Source: Marmoricola sp. (GTDB taxonomy: Bacteria; Actinomycetota; Actinomycetes; Propionibacteriales; Nocardioidaceae). Taken from it: DNA of 48,130 nucleotides. Position numbers and translations under genes: made by a program. This document shows positions 14,210 to 47,105 of this stretch, piece by piece. A model generated the notes under the pieces. The model was given only the letters and a program-made list of their open reading frames with translations. It was not told the origin of the DNA and did no database searches. The stretch is taken from positions 1-48,130 of the forward strand of contig NZ_JAOPXI010000185.1 in NCBI RefSeq assembly GCF_025965215.1. The letters run 5' to 3'. Numbering within the stretch: the stretch's first letter is position 1; each line of letters starts with the position of its first letter.

Positions 14210-14314
14210 CACGCCACCGCGGGACTTGGCGTCATGTCGACAAAGCCGCAGGTATCCCCGTGCAGGGGCAGGACATCAGCCCGAACGGGCACGAAGGCAA
14301 AGGGGAACCGGACC

Positions 14315-15367
14315 ATGAATGGTGCCGACGGATTTGGCGGTCAGTCCACCAGTGCCTCCGAGGTACCACCCCTGGTCCACAATCCTGTGACGGCAGCTGA
14401 TCCGGACGCCACGGTGCTGCAACACTCCGCCTTCCGCGATTCGTCGGCAACGCAGTCCACACTGGAAGATCCATCAGGTCAGCCAGTGCAGGAGGTCCGC
14501 GTGACCACAGTCGACGACACCGAGATCGTCATGGGCCCTACCGGGCGCCCGATGCCGACGTTCCCCGAGCCCGGTCCCGTCGGTGCGCGGACCAGGGCCC
14601 GGATCGTCTCGATGTGCAACCAGAAGGGTGGGGTCGGCAAGACGACGACCACGATCAACCTGGGGGCGTCGCTGGCCGAGTTCGGACGCAAGGTGCTGCT
14701 CGTCGACTTCGATCCACAGGGGTCGCTCTCGGTCGGCCTGGGCCTGAATCCGCACCAGATGGAGCTCTCGATCTACAACCTGCTCATGCAGCGCGACGTC
14801 GAGCTCGCCGACGTGGTCGTGCCGACCGGTGTCCCAGGGATGGACCTGCTTCCCTCCAACATCGACCTCTCGGCCGCCGAGGTCCAGCTCGTGCACGAGG
14901 TGGCCCGTGAGCAGACCCTCCAGCGGGTCCTGGCGCCGGCGCTGGAGAACTACGACATCATCCTGATCGACTGCCAGCCCTCCCTGGGTCTGCTCACCGT
15001 GAACGCGCTGACCGCCTCCGACGGCGTGATCGTCCCGCTCGAGTGCGAGTACTTCGCGTTGCGCGGCGTGGCACTGCTCAAGACCACGATCGACAAGGTC
15101 CGCGAGCGCCTCAACCCTCGCCTGGAGATCGAAGGCGTGCTGGGCACCATGTTCGACGGCCGCACGTTGCACAGTCGCGAAGTGATGTCCCGCTTGGTCG
15201 AGGCCTGGGGCGACACCGTCTTCCACACCGTGATTCGGCGGACGGTGAAGTTCTCCGACGCGACGGTAGCGGGCGAGCCGATCACCAGCTACGCGACCGC
15301 GTCGGGTGGAGCGGACTCCTACCGGCAGCTCGCCAAGGAGGTGCTGGCTCGTTGGCAAGACGCGTGA
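14315..15367 (+). CDS. parA: ParA/Soj-family ATPase of the scpAB operon
   Basis: A 350-residue ParA-type ATPase. A poorly conserved, probably disordered N-terminus of about 90 residues precedes PTGRPMPTFP and the deviant Walker A KGGVGKT (104-110, with the signature Lys104). LLVDFDPQGSLSVGLG and ILIDCQPSLGLLTVNAL follow. This is the chromosomal paralogue found beside scpAB in many actinobacteria (Rv1708 position), distinct from the oriC-linked ParA. The start ATG 14315 has AGGGGAA upstream; a shorter start at GTG 14502 would keep the ATPase core. It overlaps the next gene by GTGA, which suggests the product works with it. Confidence 0.93.
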   Translation: MNGADGFGGQSTSASEVPPLVHNPVTAADPDATVLQHSAFRDSSATQSTLEDPSGQPVQEVRVTTVDDTEIVMGPTGRPMPTFPEPGPVGARTRARIVSMCNQKGGVGKTTTTINLGASLAEFGRKVLLVDFDPQGSLSVGLGLNPHQMELSIYNLLMQRDVELADVVVPTGVPGMDLLPSNIDLSAAEVQLVHEVAREQTLQRVLAPALENYDIILIDCQPSLGLLTVNALTASDGVIVPLECEYFALRGVALLKTTIDKVRERLNPRLEIEGVLGTMFDGRTLHSREVMSRLVEAWGDTVFHTVIRRTVKFSDATVAGEPITSYATASGGADSYRQLAKEVLARWQDA

Positions 15368-15729
15368 GCCTGCCCACCGCTGACGACCTGTTCCGCCCCA
15401 CTGTCGAGGAGACCGAGGACGAGTCTCCCGTCGCCGCGGTCACGGAGCCGGCGGTCAAGGCTGTTCCGAAGGCGACGGCTGTGCCGAAGGGCGCTGCCAA
15501 GAACTCTCGGCGACCCTCCAGCGGGCGGGTGCGGCACGACGAGAAGATGACGGTGTACGTCACCGCTGACGAGCTCGTCGACATCGAGCACGCCCGGCTG
15601 ATGCTTCGGCGCGACCACGGACTGGCCGTCGACCGTGGCCGGCTGGTCAGGGAAGCGCTGGCGATCGTGCTCGCCGACCTCGAGCGGCACGGGGACGACA
15701 GCGAGCTCATCCGTCGGTTGCTGGGATGA
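15364..15729 (+). CDS. Small ribbon-helix-helix-like protein, possible ParA partner
   Basis: A 121-residue protein. Residues 1-58 are acidic then Lys/Pro/Ala-rich and probably disordered. Residues 59-108 have the layout of a ribbon-helix-helix domain: a short strand KMTVYVT, helix ADELVDIEHARLMLRR, a turn, then helix DRGRLVREALAIVLADLE. A disordered basic tail plus an RHH domain is how ParG-type centromere-binding partners of ParA ATPases are built. This assignment is structural inference, not recognised homology. It overlaps parA at GTGA and overlaps scpA by four bases (ATGA). Confidence 0.72.
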   Translation: MSLPTADDLFRPTVEETEDESPVAAVTEPAVKAVPKATAVPKGAAKNSRRPSSGRVRHDEKMTVYVTADELVDIEHARLMLRRDHGLAVDRGRLVREALAIVLADLERHGDDSELIRRLLG

Positions 15730-16631
15730 GCTCGACCACCGTCGCCAGCTCGAGCCTCGATGCCGGGGCCATCGGAGAACCCGGGCTCGAGGTCGGGTTC
15801 GCGGTGCGGCTGGACAACTTCGAAGGTCCGTTCGACCTGCTGCTGAGCCTGATCAGCAAGCACAAGATGGACGTCACCGAGGTGGCGCTCTCACGGGTGA
15901 CCGATGAGTTCATCGCGCACATCAAGGCCGGCGGCGAGGTCTGGGACCTCGAGCAGACGACGTCGTTCCTGCTGGTCGCCTCGACCTTGCTGGACCTGAA
16001 GGCCGCCCGGTTGCTGCCGTCGGGAGACATCGAGGACGAGGACGACCTGGCGCTGCTCGAAGCACGCGACCTGCTCTTCGCCCGCCTGCTGCAGTACCGG
16101 GCCTAAAAGAAGGTCGCCTCGGTGATGGAGCGCCGGATCGAGGCCGAGGCCCTGCGCTTCCCCAGGGCCGTCGGACTCGACGACCGGTTCGCGACGTTGC
16201 TGCCCGAGGTGCTCATCGGACTGGGCCTGGAGGAGTTCGCCGGGCTGGCGGCCCGTGCGCTCGAGCCCAAGCCGGTCCCGGAGCTGTCCTTGGCGCACAT
16301 CCACGCCCCGGCAGTGAGCGTGCGCGAGCAGGCGCACCTGGTGGTGGAGCGGTTGCGGGTGCACGGCACGCTGACCTTCCGCAAGCTCGCCGCGGACGCA
16401 CCTGACACGATGACCCGGGTCGCCCGGTTCCTCGCACTGCTGGAGCTGTTTCGCGAGGGCGTCCTGGCCTTCGACCAGGTCACGCCGCTGGGCGAGCTGA
16501 CCGTCCGCTGGACCGGCGGTGAGGACGAGGAGATCGAGATCAACGACGAGTTCGACGGCACGCCGCTCTCCCCGGACCCGGGCACGGCCCTGCATGACAC
16601 GACCGGCGAGACAGAAAGCAGTGACGCATGA
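15726..16631 (+). pseudogene. scpA: scpA (SMC kleisin) interrupted by an in-frame TAA
   Basis: Bases 15726-16106 encode 126 residues of ScpA up to LLFARLLQYRA, where TAA (16104-16106) stands for the Tyr codon TAC expected in LLQYRAYKKV. The same frame continues from AAGAAG without any shift to 16631 and encodes the remainder, VMERRIEAEAL through a winged-helix C-terminus (LRVHGTLTFRKLA). Full length would be 301 residues, normal for actinobacterial ScpA. A single base change (C to A) explains it. Either the gene is truly broken, or it is a sequence error, or it is translated as two pieces: AGAAGG (16108-16113) lies eight bases before GTG 16122. ScpA links SMC heads and binds ScpB, encoded next with an ATGA overlap. 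Confidence 0.88.
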
Positions 16632-17362
16632 CCGAGACCCAGGTCGAGGACCAGACGGCCGAGGACGCCGAGATGTTCGAGCCGATCGAGAGCGGTGCTG
16701 ACGAGCAGCGTGAATCCGAGGGGGAGACCCTCTCGATCCCGCTCGCCGACCTGCGACCGGCGCTGGAAGCCGTTCTCATGGTCGCCGACCAGCCGCTCGA
16801 CGAGGTCAGCCTGGCCACTGCAGTCGGCTACCCGACCACCGAGGTGGTCGAGGCGCTGCACATCCTGGCCGCGGAGTACGACGAGCAGGTGCGCGGGTTC
16901 GAGCTGCGCAACGTCGCGGGTGGCTGGCGGTACTACACCCGCGAGGAATTCGCCCCTGTGGTCGAGAAGTTCGTGCTCGAGGGACAGCAGGCGCGGCTGA
17001 CCCAGGCCGCCCTCGAGACCCTTGCCGTGGTTGCCTACAAGCAGCCGGTCAGCCGGAGCCGCGTCTCCGCGATCCGCGGGGTCAACGTCGACGGCGTGAT
17101 GCGCACGCTGCTGACCCGCGGTCTCGTCGAGGAGGCAGGGACCGACTCCGAGACCGGCGCCCATCTGTACCGCACGACGGTGTACTTCCTCGAGAGGATC
17201 GGGATCACCTCGCTCGACGAGCTGCCCGAGCTTGCGCCGTACGTCCCGGACATGGACGAGTTCGACTTCGACGAGGAGCTCGCCGCCGCGGTGACACCCG
17301 AGGCCGTGGTCGAAGAGACCGAAGCGGCAGCCGGCGAGTTCGAGCCCGCCGACGATGCCTGA
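16628..17362 (+). CDS. scpB: Segregation and condensation protein ScpB
   Basis: A 244-residue kleisin-interacting winged-helix protein of the SMC-ScpAB condensin. The first 40 residues are an acidic tail. Two winged-helix domains follow (about residues 42-115 and 116-195), with LRPALEAVLMVADQPLD, TQAALETLAVVAYKQPVSR and IRGVNVDGVMRTLL as family motifs. A long Glu-rich C-terminal tail ends the protein. ATG 16628 overlaps the scpA stop, and the last eight bases overlap the pseudouridine synthase. The gene is intact although scpA is interrupted. Confidence 0.95.
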   Translation: MTETQVEDQTAEDAEMFEPIESGADEQRESEGETLSIPLADLRPALEAVLMVADQPLDEVSLATAVGYPTTEVVEALHILAAEYDEQVRGFELRNVAGGWRYYTREEFAPVVEKFVLEGQQARLTQAALETLAVVAYKQPVSRSRVSAIRGVNVDGVMRTLLTRGLVEEAGTDSETGAHLYRTTVYFLERIGITSLDELPELAPYVPDMDEFDFDEELAAAVTPEAVVEETEAAAGEFEPADDA

Positions 17363-18122
17363 GCAGGAGCCGCAGAACCTGCCCGACCTCGACGAGGACG
17401 GACTGATCCGGTTGCAGAAGCTGCTCGCCACCTCCGGGGTCGCGAGCCGTCGCAAGTGCGAGGAGCTGATGCTCGCCGGCGAGGTCGAGGTGGACGGCGA
17501 GATCGTCACCCGTCTCGGAACGAAGGTGGATCCCCGGGTCGCTGTCATCCGGGTCTCGGGCAAGCGGCTGCCGCCGATCAGCCCGAACGTCTACCTGGTG
17601 CTGAACAAGCCGCGCGGGGTCGTGTCGACGATGTCCGACCCCGAGGGCCGTCCATCGCTCGCCGAGTACGTGGCGGACCGTCCGGAGCGGCTGTTCCACG
17701 TCGGGCGCCTGGACACCGACACCGACGGGCTGCTGCTGCTGACCAACGACGGGGACTTCGCGCAACGGCTGGCCCACCCGTCGTACGAGGTGGAGAAGAC
17801 GTACGTCGCCGAGGTCGCGGGATCCGTGGACAAGAGCACCGTCAAGACCCTGCTGGCGGGCGTCGTGCTGGAGGACGGCCCCGTCGAGGTGCGCCGTGCC
17901 CGGGTGATCTCGACGACCGCCAACCGTGGCATCGTCGAACTGGTGATCCACGAGGGCCGCAATCGGATCGTGCGCCGCCTGTTCGACGAGATCGGGCACC
18001 CTGTCCAGCGCCTGACGCGGACCGCGATCGGTCCGGTGCGGATCGGGAACCTGCGTCAGGGAGCGATGCGCGACCTCACCCTCGATGAGGTCGGATCGCT
18101 GCTCGACACCGCAGGCCTATAG
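17355..18122 (+). CDS. rluB: 23S rRNA pseudouridine synthase, RluB/RsuA family
   Basis: A 255-residue enzyme with an N-terminal S4 domain (about residues 18-65, RLQKLLATSGVASRR) and a RsuA/RluB/E/F-type catalytic domain. The catalytic Asp120 is in GRLDTDTDGLLLLTNDG. LVLNKPRGVVSTMSDPEGRP and EGRNRIVRRLFDEIGHPV are further family motifs. By context (Rv1711 position, after scpB) it is probably the RluB-type enzyme acting on helix 89 of 23S rRNA; the specific target is inference. Its stop codon lies inside the -10 box of the following aroH promoter. Confidence 0.92.
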   Translation: MPEQEPQNLPDLDEDGLIRLQKLLATSGVASRRKCEELMLAGEVEVDGEIVTRLGTKVDPRVAVIRVSGKRLPPISPNVYLVLNKPRGVVSTMSDPEGRPSLAEYVADRPERLFHVGRLDTDTDGLLLLTNDGDFAQRLAHPSYEVEKTYVAEVAGSVDKSTVKTLLAGVVLEDGPVEVRRARVISTTANRGIVELVIHEGRNRIVRRLFDEIGHPVQRLTRTAIGPVRIGNLRQGAMRDLTLDEVGSLLDTAGL

Positions 18123-29572: not shown

Positions 29573-29692
29573 GCCCCCGTCGTCTAGTGGTTACCGATCG
29601 CTGGGTGACCAGATTCGTGCGCGGATCGGGCGTCGCTGGGGCAACCCCTCGGAACTGCCCAGCGGCAGGCGGTACTACCGATCGTTGGGGGC
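29573..29692 (+). promoter_or_regulatory. Foldable 5' leader of the LPXTG gene, starting with a tRNA-Glu-like 5' end
   Basis: Bases 29573-29593 read as the first 21 bases of a tRNA-Glu (acceptor 5' strand plus D-loop), but no anticodon or T arm follows. The region can fold. An outer stem 29573-29578/29687-29692 pairs GCCCCC with GGGGGC. Stem 29594-29599/29624-29629 pairs CCGATC with GATCGG and encloses CTGG-GTGA-CCAG (29601-29612, a GNRA-type loop). Hairpin 29634-29640/29658-29664 is 7 bp. The GGGGGC arm touches the AGGA ribosome site at 29693-29696. It matches no riboswitch class I recognise. Confidence 0.45.
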
Positions 29693-29701
29693 AGGACGCA
29701 C

Positions 29702-32700
29702 ATGAACATTCGGCCGACTCGGGCTTTTCGGAGCTTCGGAATCATCAACCGCAGGAACCCGTTCGCGCGGATGCTCGTGATCCTCGTCACCGCGGCGATC
29801 GCACTCGTGCTGGGCACGGGGCCCGGCATGGCCGACGACCTGAGTCCTGGGGCTCCGACGCCGACGGGCACCTCGACCCCGGCCGCTTCGCCGAGCGCGA
29901 CCGCGACGCCCGATCCGTCTCCTTCCACGACTCCGCCGGAGAGCCCTGCGTCGAGTCCCAGCACCGATGCGGCCACGCAGACGATTGCTCCGTCGTCGCC
30001 CGCGGCGCCCAGCACGGGTGTCACCTCGTCGGTTGCCACCGGCTCCGGCACGTCCGGCACCAGGCCGCCTCGGAAGACCCTGGCGGCATCGTTCAGCTCG
30101 GTGGTCTCGGCAGCGCTGGCAAGCCAGTGCGATCCCCAGCACAGCCCTGTCCTCGTCGGCCTCTTCGAGATCGACGGCAACACCTGCGTCGACGATCCGA
30201 CCAAGCAGGACTGGGACACCACGGGGATGCACGTCGACGACGGCGCCAAGGACAGCACGGCGTACACGCAGGGTGACTCGGAGAGCACCGACCCCGCGGG
30301 TTGGCACACAGGCGGCTCCTCGCAGGGCAAGGACGACATCACCGATGCCTGGAGCTACACCAACATCGTCGCCGGTGACGTGTGGACCCTGTTCGCGGTG
30401 CACCGCGTGGACAACAACGGCACCACGACGTACGACGTCGAGCTCAACCAGAACACGAACAGCGCTCCCCAGCGGCCCTCGCGCAGCCCCGGGGACCTGC
30501 TGCTCCAGTTCGCCGTCAACGGAACCGGACCTCTCACCTTCGACCAGGCGTACAGCTGGACGGCCACGACGGCCTTCACTGACCCCGGCTGCTTCCAGTC
30601 CGGCAGTACTGGCTTCGGTTGGTGCCCGCTGAACACCGTGGCGCCACCGTTGTTCTTCTCTCGCACGAGCACCGACGGCTTGTTCGCCGAGGGCGCGATC
30701 AACCTGAGCGGACTCGGGCGGGCGAACGGTGGCATCTGCACCGGCTCGTTCGGGCAGATGAACATCCGCACCGTGGCCTCCGAGTCGCACACAGCGGCCC
30801 TCCAGGACTACGTGCTGCCGTTCAACACGAACATTGCGCCGACCTGCGGCTCGATCGTGATCAACAAGTTCGACGGCGGGAACACCCCTGTCGGCGGGGC
30901 ACACTTCACGATCAGCCCAGATCCGACGCCGGGGTCGACCTCCACCACCCCGGTCACGCTGATCGATGGCGGCACCGGCGACGCGGACCACACCGCCAAC
31001 GGCGTGATCACCATCAGTCCGGCCCAGGCCGGCGACTACACCGTGGTCGAGACCCAGGCACCGACCGGTTACCTGATGCCGACCACCACCAGCATCCAGC
31101 TCACGCTGGCGCCAGGCGCCGACCAGACCGCGACGTTCAACTTCCACGACCCGAAGCAGTGGCAGGCCCTGACGGCGACCAAGACCGCCGTCCCGACGTA
31201 CACGGCCAGCTATGACTGGTCGATCGTCAAGGAGATCTCCAAGACCGGGTCGGCACCCTGGGTCGCGGACACGACCTCGGGCACACCGCTGACCAAGACC
31301 GTGCCTGCGGCAGGGAACCCGACGAACGATGCGCTGTCCTACCGGGTCAGCGCCACCGAAGGTGCCCGGACGACCTCGCTCTACAAGGTCAGCGGCAACA
31401 TCAGTGTGACGAACGCGAACGCGAGCGCCGTCAACGCCAACCTGAGCGACGCGTTGCCGGGTGCGACCTGCCTGGTCGGGGGCAACGCCGTCGACACGGT
31501 CGCGGTGCCTTCGGGTACGACGGCGTACCCCTACGTCTGCTCGTTCGCCGGTACACCGGCCGCGGGCCAGCTCACCGGCGTGAACACCGCCTCGGTGACC
31601 TGGGCCAAGGCGGACTACCCGCAGGTCCAGGGCGACGTGAACGCGGCCGGCAACTACTCGGTGAGCCCGACTGCCGGCTATGCCTTCGGTGCGGAGACGA
31701 CGTCGATCAACAAGACCGTCACGGTCACCGACGACCACCACACCTTCGCTCCTGCCCTGCAGTTCACCTGGGGCGTCGGCGGGCCGGTCCACACCTCGGC
31801 CGTCTACACGCAGAGCTTCTCGGCAGCGCCTGGCACCTGCTCGGCCGTCCTGGCCAACACGGCCACCCTCACCGGAGACAACTCCGCTGTTCTGGGCACG
31901 GACTCGGCCTACGGGAAGCTGTGCGTCGCGCAGGATCTGGGCATCACCAGGATCGACGCCCGAGGGTTCACGCGCACCTACCCCTGGTCGATCTCGAAGG
32001 GGACCAGCACGCCGAAGGTGCTTGTCAACGGGGGAGCGGCGTCGGCGGACTACTCGGTCACCGTGACTGCCGGCGACGGCACCGACAGCGCCTGGGCCAT
32101 GACCGGAACGATCACGGCTCACAACCCGAACGACTTCGAGTCGGTCTCGGTGACCGGGGTCCCGATCTCGTACACCGGCGGCGGGACCTGCTCGGTCACC
32201 GGAGTGGCGTTCCCCGTGGTCATCGCCGCGGGCGGGTCGCAGGACTTCGCCTACTCCTGCAACTTCGGCGTGCAGCCCAACTACACGGGCACGATCAACG
32301 CCACGGTGCAGTGGGACCAGACCAGCGCCTCGACGCCTGACGGATCGACCTCGGACGGACTCGGCGTGACCGAGGCCGACTGGACCAAGACCCTGGTCAA
32401 CAACACGGTCACGGTCCACGACGACCACGCCGCGGGCGAGGACCACGTCGTGGCGACGCTCGACTGGGCCACCGTGCACGCGATGCCGAACCACCAGGAC
32501 GTGCTCACCTACACCGTCGCGCTGCAGAACCTGCCCGACGGTGGTACCTGCGACACCAAGACGAACACGGCTTGGATCGTCGGCGACGGGCTGGTCCACC
32601 TCGACAGTGACCAGAGCTCCGCGAACAACCAGGCGATGGTGCAGGTCTGCAACCCGATCGGCCTGAGCGTCGATGACAGTGCGACCGGCGACTTCACGCG

Positions 32701-35077
32701 CACCTACAACTGGAAGATCGACAAGTTCATCAACACCGATCAGAAGTCGCAGACGGAGCACATCGACAGCTACGACCACACCTTCGACTACACGGTGATC
32801 GCGACGCCGCTGCCGCGGGTCGACAGCGGCTGGACGGTCAGCGGGACGATCGGGGTCGACAACGACAACACTGATCCCGCCATTGCCCCGATCACGGTCA
32901 CCGGTGTCGGTGAGCTGCTGAACGTCGGCGCGGTCTCCAACTGCCTCTACAACAAGGCGGTTCCGTTCGACCTGTCCTCCGGCGCTCACGCCGACATCGG
33001 GTTCACCTGCACGGTTCAGCCCACGCCGATCAACAACGGCGGTGAGCCTCCGGTCTACGGCGGCACCCACCAGGCGAACGTGACGTGGGGGACCACGGGC
33101 ACAGCGACCTCGTCCAGCGCCAACGTCGCCTGGAACGCGCCGAACGAGATCGACAAGTCGATCGCGATCTACGACAACGAGGTCACCAACAGCGCGAACC
33201 CGGTCAAGCTCGGTGCCGACGCCGTCTGGAACGCAGCCGGTACGCCGACGACCCTGACGTACTCGCTCGACCTGAGCGTCCCGCAGAGCACTGCCGGGAG
33301 CTGCGCTCCGCAGTTCAACAACCTGGCCTGGCTGGGCGGCAACGGCGTCACCCCGACCGCCAGGCAGAGCAGCGCTGCCGCGATCATCTGCGTGAACGCG
33401 GCCGCGTGGACGCTGTCGAAGGCGAGCGTCTCCGACCCGAGTCCGCTGATGCCCGGTGGCACGATCACCTACACCCTCACGGTCACGCACACCGCGGGCG
33501 TACCCGCCCAGAACGTGGTGGTCGTGGACGACCTGAGCAAGGTGCTGAACAACACCGGCGGTCTGCTGAACGTGGTGGCCAGCGATGGCTCCGCGTTGCT
33601 GGTGCAGCCGGTGGGCACGCTCCTGGCCTGGACCATCCCGGTCCTGTCGAGCTCTGCCACGCTGACCTACACGGTCCAGGTCAACCCCGACGCGTGGAAC
33701 ACGACGTTCACCAACGCGGCGACACCGCAGAGTCCTGGTGGGACCTGTGTAGGTGCCAACAACTGTTCGACCACCGACCACACGCCGGCCCTGCCCAAGC
33801 TGACGCTCCAGAAGGACGTCATCAACGGCAAGGGCGGCACGGCGGTCAGCAAGGACTGGACCCTGACGGCAACGCCGGTGTCGATCGCCGGCCAGAGCAC
33901 CGTCACCGGGAACGGTGACCCGACCGATGCGGGCGGCACATCGGACAAGGACGTGCTTGCCGGGACCTACACCCTCAGCGAGAGCGGCGGACCGGCGGGC
34001 TACTCGCAGGTCGGCGGCTGGAACTGCGGGCCCAACAACCCGGTGACCGGCGATCAGGTCACCCTGGCACTCGACACCACCGTGACCTGCACGGTCACGA
34101 ACCAGCAGGATTCTGTCTGGAGGATCGTCAAGACCAGTGATCCGGCCTCCGGGACGGTGCAGCCGGGCCAGCAGATCACCTACACGCTGACCCCGACCTG
34201 GGTCGCTGGCGTGAACCCGACGAACCTGAACATCACCGACGACTTCAGCGGGCTGGTCGGCAAGACGTCGGCGGTGGTGATCAACGACCCGAACGTCACG
34301 ATGAACGGCAACAACACGTTCACCTGGCACATCGCCACGCTCACCGACCAGACGGCGCCACTGAGCTACACGGTGACGGTGAACGCAGATGCGATCGGCG
34401 TGACGCTGATCAACCTGGTGACCGCACCGGGCACCAACTGCCCGCCACCGGTGGTGGGCCGCCATGCGGCCGCAGCGGTCACGGTGACACCGGACGACTG
34501 CACCACGGTGCACGAGACCCCGGAGTGGACCCTGCAGAAGACATCGGCCCCGGCGACCAACTCCTCGGTCTCCCCGGGCGACGTCATCAGCTACACGCTC
34601 ACGGTCACCAACACCTCGGACGCCGAAGTGAGCGGGATGCATGTGACCGACGACCTGACCAAGGTGCTCGACACGGCCACGCTGAACGAGACTCCGGACG
34701 GCGTCATCTGGACCGTGGTCGGCAACACGCTCACCTGGAACGTGCCCGACCTCGCACCGGGTGCGAGTGCCCAGCTGATGTACTCGGTGACCCTCAACTC
34801 CGGGCCCGTCACGGTGGTCGACAACATCGCAGCTCCGGTCGAGGTCACCGGGCACTGCGTGGCCGCCGGCGCCTGCGAGACGGTCCAGACACCCAACGCG
34901 TTGCCGCCCGTGGTCTGCACCACGAACTGTGGACACGTGGTCAGTCCGCCGTCGTTGCCCAACACGGGTGGTCCGAATGCACGCCTGGCCTACCTCGGTC
35001 TGACTCTGCTCGTCTGCGGCGGAGTGCTGATGCTGGCAGGCAAGCGGCGTCGTTACCAGGGCCGCTACCGGGGCTGA
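29702..35077 (+). CDS. Giant LPXTG-anchored surface protein with CnaB-like and DUF11-like repeats
   Basis: A 1791-residue cell-wall protein. A signal segment (about 23-45, MLVILVTAAIALVLG) is followed by a Ser/Thr/Pro-rich stalk (about 47-125) and a Cys-containing N-terminal domain (about 135-375). A SpaA/CnaB-like module follows (about 381-475; Lys in IVINKFDGG and Glu in VVETQAPTGYL fit an isopeptide pair). Then come about six to eight Ig-like modules with recurring openings (YDWSIVK, YPWSISK, YNWKIDK) and DUF11-type units (PGGTITYTLTVTH, PGDVISYTLTVTN). The sorting signal is LPNTG at about 1752-1756, then a hydrophobic helix and KRRR. No sortase gene is in the window. The likely role is adhesion or structure. 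AGGA precedes ATG 29702. Confidence 0.92.
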   Translation: MNIRPTRAFRSFGIINRRNPFARMLVILVTAAIALVLGTGPGMADDLSPGAPTPTGTSTPAASPSATATPDPSPSTTPPESPASSPSTDAATQTIAPSSPAAPSTGVTSSVATGSGTSGTRPPRKTLAASFSSVVSAALASQCDPQHSPVLVGLFEIDGNTCVDDPTKQDWDTTGMHVDDGAKDSTAYTQGDSESTDPAGWHTGGSSQGKDDITDAWSYTNIVAGDVWTLFAVHRVDNNGTTTYDVELNQNTNSAPQRPSRSPGDLLLQFAVNGTGPLTFDQAYSWTATTAFTDPGCFQSGSTGFGWCPLNTVAPPLFFSRTSTDGLFAEGAINLSGLGRANGGICTGSFGQMNIRTVASESHTAALQDYVLPFNTNIAPTCGSIVINKFDGGNTPVGGAHFTISPDPTPGSTSTTPVTLIDGGTGDADHTANGVITISPAQAGDYTVVETQAPTGYLMPTTTSIQLTLAPGADQTATFNFHDPKQWQALTATKTAVPTYTASYDWSIVKEISKTGSAPWVADTTSGTPLTKTVPAAGNPTNDALSYRVSATEGARTTSLYKVSGNISVTNANASAVNANLSDALPGATCLVGGNAVDTVAVPSGTTAYPYVCSFAGTPAAGQLTGVNTASVTWAKADYPQVQGDVNAAGNYSVSPTAGYAFGAETTSINKTVTVTDDHHTFAPALQFTWGVGGPVHTSAVYTQSFSAAPGTCSAVLANTATLTGDNSAVLGTDSAYGKLCVAQDLGITRIDARGFTRTYPWSISKGTSTPKVLVNGGAASADYSVTVTAGDGTDSAWAMTGTITAHNPNDFESVSVTGVPISYTGGGTCSVTGVAFPVVIAAGGSQDFAYSCNFGVQPNYTGTINATVQWDQTSASTPDGSTSDGLGVTEADWTKTLVNNTVTVHDDHAAGEDHVVATLDWATVHAMPNHQDVLTYTVALQNLPDGGTCDTKTNTAWIVGDGLVHLDSDQSSANNQAMVQVCNPIGLSVDDSATGDFTRTYNWKIDKFINTDQKSQTEHIDSYDHTFDYTVIATPLPRVDSGWTVSGTIGVDNDNTDPAIAPITVTGVGELLNVGAVSNCLYNKAVPFDLSSGAHADIGFTCTVQPTPINNGGEPPVYGGTHQANVTWGTTGTATSSSANVAWNAPNEIDKSIAIYDNEVTNSANPVKLGADAVWNAAGTPTTLTYSLDLSVPQSTAGSCAPQFNNLAWLGGNGVTPTARQSSAAAIICVNAAAWTLSKASVSDPSPLMPGGTITYTLTVTHTAGVPAQNVVVVDDLSKVLNNTGGLLNVVASDGSALLVQPVGTLLAWTIPVLSSSATLTYTVQVNPDAWNTTFTNAATPQSPGGTCVGANNCSTTDHTPALPKLTLQKDVINGKGGTAVSKDWTLTATPVSIAGQSTVTGNGDPTDAGGTSDKDVLAGTYTLSESGGPAGYSQVGGWNCGPNNPVTGDQVTLALDTTVTCTVTNQQDSVWRIVKTSDPASGTVQPGQQITYTLTPTWVAGVNPTNLNITDDFSGLVGKTSAVVINDPNVTMNGNNTFTWHIATLTDQTAPLSYTVTVNADAIGVTLINLVTAPGTNCPPPVVGRHAAAAVTVTPDDCTTVHETPEWTLQKTSAPATNSSVSPGDVISYTLTVTNTSDAEVSGMHVTDDLTKVLDTATLNETPDGVIWTVVGNTLTWNVPDLAPGASAQLMYSVTLNSGPVTVVDNIAAPVEVTGHCVAAGACETVQTPNALPPVVCTTNCGHVVSPPSLPNTGGPNARLAYLGLTLLVCGGVLMLAGKRRRYQGRYRG

Positions 35078-35114
35078 CACGCACCGGAAGCCTCGGCGAC
35101 GCTGCGCGCGCGAT

Positions 35115-46589: not shown

Positions 46590-47105
46590 ATGCAGACCTG
46601 CTCGCAGTGCGGGAGCCAGAACACCGACGACGCGAGGTTCTGCTCCCATTGCGGTCATGCCCTCGAGCCGGTCGCCCCGCTGGAGCCGGCACCGGCCGAC
46701 TCGACGGCGACCATCACGTTCGGCGCCGCCAAGCTCGATCCGGACGACCGCAGCACCTTGAACGAGGCCGACGCTGCTGCCGCGGACGCGCTGCCGGCCG
46801 GCAGCGCCCTGCTCATCGTCCAGCGCGGCCCGGGAGCCGGCAGCAGGTACCTGCTGGACACCGACGAGGTCAGCGCCGGACGGCACCCGGAGAGCGACAT
46901 CTTCCTCGACGACATCACCGTCTCGCGTCGTCACGTCGAGTTCCATCGCGACGGCGGCACCTTCCGGGTCCACGACGTCGGCAGCCTGAACGGGACCTAC
47001 GTCAACCGCGACCGGATCGACGACGCACTGCTGCAGAACGGCGACGAGGTCCGGATCGGGAAGTTCCGCCTGGTCTTCTTCGCCAGTGCAGCCTCGGGTA
47101 GCTGA
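46590..47105 (+). CDS. garA: FHA-domain protein, GarA-like, with N-terminal zinc ribbon
   Basis: A 171-residue protein. An N-terminal zinc ribbon uses Cys4, Cys7, Cys18 and Cys21. A flexible acidic linker (about 25-75) carries Thr residues (STATITFGA) that could be phospho-acceptors. The FHA domain (about 75-165) has GRHPESDIFLDD, SRRHVEF and LNGTYVN, so the phosphothreonine-binding Arg, Ser and Asn are present. In the syntenic Rv1827 (GarA) FHA binding controls 2-oxoglutarate and glutamate metabolism, with a TTS/TEY-type N-terminal phospho-site. The zinc ribbon here replaces that tail, so regulation may differ. Confidence 0.88.
   Translation: MQTCSQCGSQNTDDARFCSHCGHALEPVAPLEPAPADSTATITFGAAKLDPDDRSTLNEADAAAADALPAGSALLIVQRGPGAGSRYLLDTDEVSAGRHPESDIFLDDITVSRRHVEFHRDGGTFRVHDVGSLNGTYVNRDRIDDALLQNGDEVRIGKFRLVFFASAASGS

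Follow-up and report, generated by a model that had tools for sequence, protein, structure and literature searches.

The scpA gene of Marmoricola sp. is interrupted, in the genome assembly, by a single in-frame TAA codon. The halves of the gene on either side of this stop are conserved, and the stop occurs in none of the compared relatives from the same genus and class. We read the TAA as an isolated nonsense base of no adaptive value. The chances are about even that it is an error in the draft consensus or a base carried in from a minor strain, in which case the cell would make an uncut ScpA with its normal role in bridging SMC. We infer an error rather than a new mutation, giving the error a small advantage over a true null of recent origin. 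The preliminary description of this DNA had also suggested that translation might restart just after the stop and yield a kleisin in two pieces. Its interpretation is supported in part, and little favours the two-piece reading.

The interrupted scpA frame and its neighbours

The analysed stretch, referred to here as the window, is 48,130 nt long and comprises positions 1 to 48,130 of contig NZ_JAOPXI010000185.1 in assembly GCF_025965215.1. The assembly is a draft of 3,595,795 bases, spread over 206 contigs, with a completeness of 94.76% and a contamination of 2.09%. The best 80 of 514 ScpB loci come mostly from Nocardioides and Marmoricola, with one from Pimelobacter and a few named only as Nocardioidaceae, Propionibacteriales, Actinomycetes or Actinomycetota; to judge from such sequences, the host is a Nocardioides/Marmoricola-type actinobacterium.

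As listed in Table 1, the scpA frame lies on the plus strand between genes for a ParA-type ATPase and ScpB. It extends over 15726-16631, with an ATG at 15726, 126 codons, the TAA, a further 174 codons and a TGA at 16629-16631. The TAA is the sole break in the frame. It had been reported in the preliminary description together with pieces of 126 and 169 residues, an AGAAGG element eight bases before GTG 16122 and an intact scpB, and all of these observations were confirmed. The interrupted gene is the only scpA found in the genome, as a search with PF02616 returned no other copy.

Table 1. Features of the scpA region, in window coordinates.
Feature	Position	Strand	Observations
ParA-type ATPase gene, 5' of scpA	14234..15367	+	25 listed NCBIfam matches, all below curated cut-offs
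scpA, 5' part	15726..16103	+	126 codons; N-terminal (SMC-neck-binding) domain
In-frame stop TAA	16104..16106	+	Phe or Tyr codon in 90/90 distinct relatives
AGAAGG, Shine-Dalgarno-like	16108..16113	+	Eight bases 5' of GTG 16122
scpA, 3' part from GTG	16122..16628	+	169 codons; middle region that binds ScpB, and C-terminal winged helix
scpB	16628..17362	+	Open and intact; PF04079, 170.6 bits; TIGR00281 over cut-off
RluB/RsuA-type pseudouridine synthase gene, 3' of scpB	17355..18122	+	TIGR00093 over cut-off

Each half of the frame is a family match to PF02616 in its own right (cut-off 24.6 bits). The 5' part scores 97.8 bits over profile positions 1-87 of 232, and the 3' part, taken from GTG 16122, scores 58.3 bits over positions 96-231. 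Sequence matches to the solved chains 3w6j_A, 3zgx_C, 4i98_A and 6ivh_A were obtained with the 5' part, which also matches NCBIfam ScpA models below their cut-offs. With the 3' part alone, neither a PDB sequence match at E 0.01 nor an NCBIfam match was found. The locus thereby resembles the known SMC-ScpAB condensin (kleisin ScpA, PF02616; PDB 3w6j, 4i98, 3zgx): both halves exceed the Pfam cut-off, the N-terminal part and an intact relative match solved chains, and scpB follows directly 3'. It differs in that the assembled Marmoricola sequence breaks the chain after the neck-binding domain, ahead of the regions for ScpB binding and the winged helix. As assembled, the gene does not have both ends of ScpA on the single chain that bridges the SMC heads.

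When an intact relative is aligned to the ScpA chains in 3w6j and 4i98, the stop site corresponds to the passage from the N-terminal domain to the middle region. The major ScpB interface of bacterial ScpA is placed by PMC7055376 in this middle region, in the second half of helix 4. A second piece would therefore be predicted to keep the ScpB contact and the winged helix, and a first piece the neck contact, with the bridge between them cut.

The genes of this region are tightly packed. The ATG of scpB overlaps the TGA of scpA (ATGA), and the start of scpA overlaps the TGA of the preceding open reading frame; translation of scpA and scpB may be coupled through such overlaps. Given the overlap between the two genes, the stop in scpA might lower the translation of scpB. 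A separate pairing site is predicted for scpB itself (-8.3 kcal/mol). Both partners of ScpA are present and open in the genome, smc being an open frame of 1274 codons on contig C124. A search of the genome for the MksF/JetA-type subunit of a second condensin (PF11855) found none, which disfavours a back-up condensin of the MksBEF/JetABC type.

The stop and the restart site in relatives

In 90 distinct relatives, all of other species, the codon aligned with the stop encodes Phe in 68 cases and Tyr in 22, and is a stop in none. This comparison had been proposed in the preliminary description, which gave the conserved motif as LLQYRAYKKV. The LLQYRA portion of that motif stands; the relatives continue it as LLQYRAFKQV, with F or Y in the proportions above, and the second K occurs in none of them. 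This second K is the Lys at codon 129 on which the AGAAGG element depends, so that the codon needed for it is private to Marmoricola sp. among the genomes compared.

Surveys of wider groups gave the same picture. ScpA was found in 22 of 24 genomes of the genus, and the in-frame stop in Marmoricola sp. only (0/21 others). Two members of the genus, G013 (94% complete) and G018 (92% complete), gave no ScpA match. The class sample, for which the full list was available, contained ScpA in 143 of 148 genomes, and 142 of the 143 have no stop, the exception being Marmoricola sp. itself; the other genomes of the genus and class samples all belong to other species. At family level ScpA was detected in 330 of 341 genomes, and the best 150 of the 330, which do not include the Marmoricola sp. 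entry, are without any stop. At phylum level it was detected in 363 of 396, and among the best 150 a stop occurs in two, Marmoricola sp. and G593. The gene is also open in all eight comparison genomes of the window homology test described below (78.0-88.9% identity). Sharing of the split within a lineage, which we took as a mark of an evolved split gene, was thus not observed in the genus (0/21) or the class sample (0/142).

G593 is another actinomycete draft, of about 110 contigs. Among the matches listed across the surveys, its ScpA is the one besides that of Marmoricola sp. to exceed the cut-off and carry an in-frame stop. Its scpA (L150:1487-2269, minus strand) is cut by a TAG that lies, in our own alignment, six codons beyond the site of the Marmoricola stop. 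Among the genomes around it, over-cut-off ScpA was found in 72 of 79, G593 included, and the stop in G593 only. A lineage with split ScpA around G593 was rejected on these counts, the other sampled genomes being all of other families.

The putative restart site was assessed through predicted pairing energies, computed with an assumed anti-Shine-Dalgarno sequence. Pairing 5' of GTG 16122 is predicted at -6.5 kcal/mol, within the range of the predicted starts of the genome (median -5.1). The same value is reached by 40% of 296 predicted starts and by 22% of 4,354 in-frame internal ATG or GTG codons, and an equally good restart lies within nine codons of 8.5% of the 91,612 codons in 302 predicted genes of the genome. 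The codon of GTG 16122 is ATG or GTG in 44 of the 90 intact relatives, and pairing is at least as strong in 21 of those 44. No restart signal beyond that of intact copies, our other mark of an evolved split gene, was therefore present, and we rejected the restart as an evolved signal. On these sequence comparisons the restart site is what chance and coding would produce, with no sign of design. With the scpA stop excluded, the 302 predicted genes end in TGA in 247 cases, TAG in 44 and TAA in 11, and the rarity of TAA fits chance better than a settled gene end. On the basis of codon use, 2.5% of random base changes would create a stop.

Base changes in scpA and the reading of the stop

Neither half of scpA shows relaxed constraint in a pN/pS comparison with 18 relatives of our choosing. 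The N-terminal part has a ratio of 0.161 (others 0.212, sd 0.045) and the C-terminal part one of 0.347 (others 0.426, sd 0.059), each ranking 2/19 from the low end. Low ranks were also obtained for the ParA-like gene (1/15), scpB (4/15) and the pseudouridine synthase (2/18). As all five stretches tested rank low, this is no peculiarity of scpA and may reflect which relatives were chosen. With synonymous sites close to saturation (pS 0.37-0.40 in scpA), a recent break would be invisible to this measure.

Three positions within 59 nt, namely 16106 (the last base of the stop), 16110 and 16164, each differ from a base common to all eight close relatives, and codons 129 and 147 take a form absent from all 90 relatives, a hint that the consensus may be poor along this stretch. 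Across scpA as a whole, private changes are not in excess but fewer than in the rest of the window sequence compared (7 of 565 conserved sites, against 323 of 11,582 overall), and the clustering of C-to-A changes is not significant (permutation values of 0.15 and 0.11). A window full of C-to-A/G-to-T errors was rejected, as these account for 44 of the 323 private changes, and both C-to-T and C-to-G are individually more frequent. As a separate observation, private changes taken together, whatever their type, fall within 4 nt of each other more often than by chance across the compared stretches of the window (40 pairs, permutation 0.002).

The preliminary description had named a sequence error and a true null as alternatives to a divided protein, and both stand. 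In favour of an error are the sense codon in all 90 relatives and the lack of the stop from the genus and class samples, the division of the draft into 206 contigs, the other stop-bearing scpA among the matches listed, which is likewise from a fragmented genome, the three private bases within 59 nt and the use of the rarest stop codon (11 of 302). Against an error are the lack of an excess of private changes in scpA, the lack of significant C-to-A clustering and the finding, detailed below, that this draft shows no clear surplus of interrupted genes over better assemblies. The main competing explanation, which we hold tentatively and at less than an even chance, is a genuine recent loss of function. 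ScpA would then end after 126 residues and leave the SMC heads unbridged, and the cell would live without working SMC-ScpAB, its segregation presumably leaning on other systems such as ParABS and FtsK. Such a null is quite plausible because some actinobacteria can do without SMC: a review table lists the smc deletion of Streptomyces coelicolor as tolerated, with 7% anucleate (PMC4255302), and that of Corynebacterium glutamicum is described as having no apparent growth phenotype (PMC11898615), both being deletions of smc and not of scpA. The stop is also the sole break in scpA, and smc and scpB are open, as expected soon after a single hit. Weighing against a null are the absence of the stop from every compared relative of the genus and class, the lack of visible decay, judged by a measure blind to a recent event, and the failure to find a PF11855 subunit that would mark a second condensin.

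A working two-piece kleisin is improbable. Translation would stop at the TAA and restart at GTG 16122 (or ATG 16125) to give a 169-residue partner with the ScpB site and winged helix, and contacts with ScpB or between helices would hold the pieces together. Such a reading can draw on the pairing energy, computed with the assumed sequence, which lies within the range of the starts of the genome; on the two pieces, which span profile positions 1-87 and 96-231 and neither of which looks decayed; and on the flow of ribosomes to scpB that a restart would maintain. It also has a parallel in PheT, an essential protein that was split by engineering in Mycoplasma pneumoniae, where the cell stays viable (PMC12494982). 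As in that case, an in-frame start lies just after the break; viability is reported there, whereas the scpA split is known from its DNA. Set against this are the equal restarts in 21 of the 44 intact relatives with a start codon and at 8.5% of codons, and the absence of the split from all compared genomes of the genus and class. When the ScpA of Bacillus subtilis was cut by TEV protease before its winged helix during cell lysis, little or no SMC was retained on the chromosome, as reported in PMC4442127; cleavage thus freed SMC. The two-piece kleisin with a purposeful restart put forward in the preliminary description is therefore unsupported: start and equal pairing occur in intact relatives, the split is unshared, and the stop falls, by alignment and the interface given in PMC7055376, where the N-terminal domain runs into the ScpB-binding middle. 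The titles and abstract openings returned by a limited search of the open literature contained no description of a naturally two-piece ScpA.

A bolder version would be more improbable still. Stop and restart on one mRNA would produce a kleisin whose neck-binding domain is free to leave while ScpB holds the pieces, creating a gate in the SMC ring, and the restart would also keep up the translation of scpB. Least probable of all is readthrough of the TAA to give some full-length ScpA. The frame is open and conserved after the stop, as readthrough would require, but TAA ends 11 of the 302 other predicted genes and is hence a normal stop in this genome.

The gene is most closely comparable to an ordinary nonsense-interrupted gene of a draft genome, such as the MMPL transporter gene described below or the scpA of G593. 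It has the single stop and otherwise intact frame of such a gene, and the stop is absent from the compared relatives. The one distinguishing feature found is the position of the stop close to a segment between domains. If the TAA is an error or a plain null, the case offers caution only: single stops in draft genomes should not be equated with gene fission without reads or kin. If the cell did run SMC on a cut kleisin, this would call into question whether the SMC ring must be closed by a single, continuous kleisin chain.

Interrupted genes and other features of the window and genome

The window homology test for broken genes covered 28,640 nt and returned six stop positions. That at 16104 is backed by eight alignments, three of them at 82.8-88.3% identity. 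The other five (4705, 5734, 9900, 9990 and 21135) have one or two alignments each at 57-67% identity, and were read from strand and position as antisense frames or gene junctions. A frameshift candidate near 47050 traces to a gene prediction that G006 likewise has in separate parts. A stop at a further locus, L103, lies near the end of its alignment and was taken as the gene's own end.

Interruptions outside the window were counted as in-frame stops. An ab initio scan made 44 calls in 379,865 bases of the genome, compared with 47 in 358,421 bases of relatives. Eight of the 44 are strong, including 16104, and L167:11924 is borderline. Six of the seven other strong calls, and one call short of the thresholds, were read by eye as gene junctions or antisense frames; the seventh, L157:17939, has an ATG as the fourth codon after the stop, and L167:11924 has one as the third. 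A second scan of the genome, over 485,188 bases, made 65 calls, of which 11 are strong; on visual inspection nine of these were assigned to junctions, gene ends or antisense frames. One interrupted gene is supported, an MMPL transporter gene on the minus strand at the end of contig C27 (6,870 bases; L199:1-2088), with an in-frame TAG at 256-258 and matches to PF03176 in both pieces. A candidate in-frame TAG lies in a gene for an ABC-2 type permease on contig C104 (L206:8092, plus strand), where the upstream piece alone has a Pfam match. Control scans of G006, a near-complete relative (six contigs), and G020 (one contig), likewise read by eye, gave 11 and 12 strong calls per 400,000 bases. They include a candidate in-frame TAG in G006 (L224:1097, plus strand) in a gene for a substrate-binding-like protein (PBP_like_2), the second piece of which has no Pfam match. 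Outside the window the genome thus contains one supported interrupted gene and one candidate in the 816,923 bases sampled, compared with one candidate in 800,000 bases of the two relatives. The difference in rate is too small to decide between error and mutation.

Other features of the window were also recorded. Open frames of 1791 codons on the plus strand and 1801 codons on the minus strand overlap over 5.4 kb at 29675-35080. A search of this region for a tandem repeat found none; Pfam matches fall on the plus frame only (DUF7927, SpaA and DUF11, with DUF7507 below cut-off). The tRNA search of the window identified one tRNA-Pro. The contig begins just 5' of a 5S rRNA gene at 139-255, so it probably breaks within an rRNA operon.
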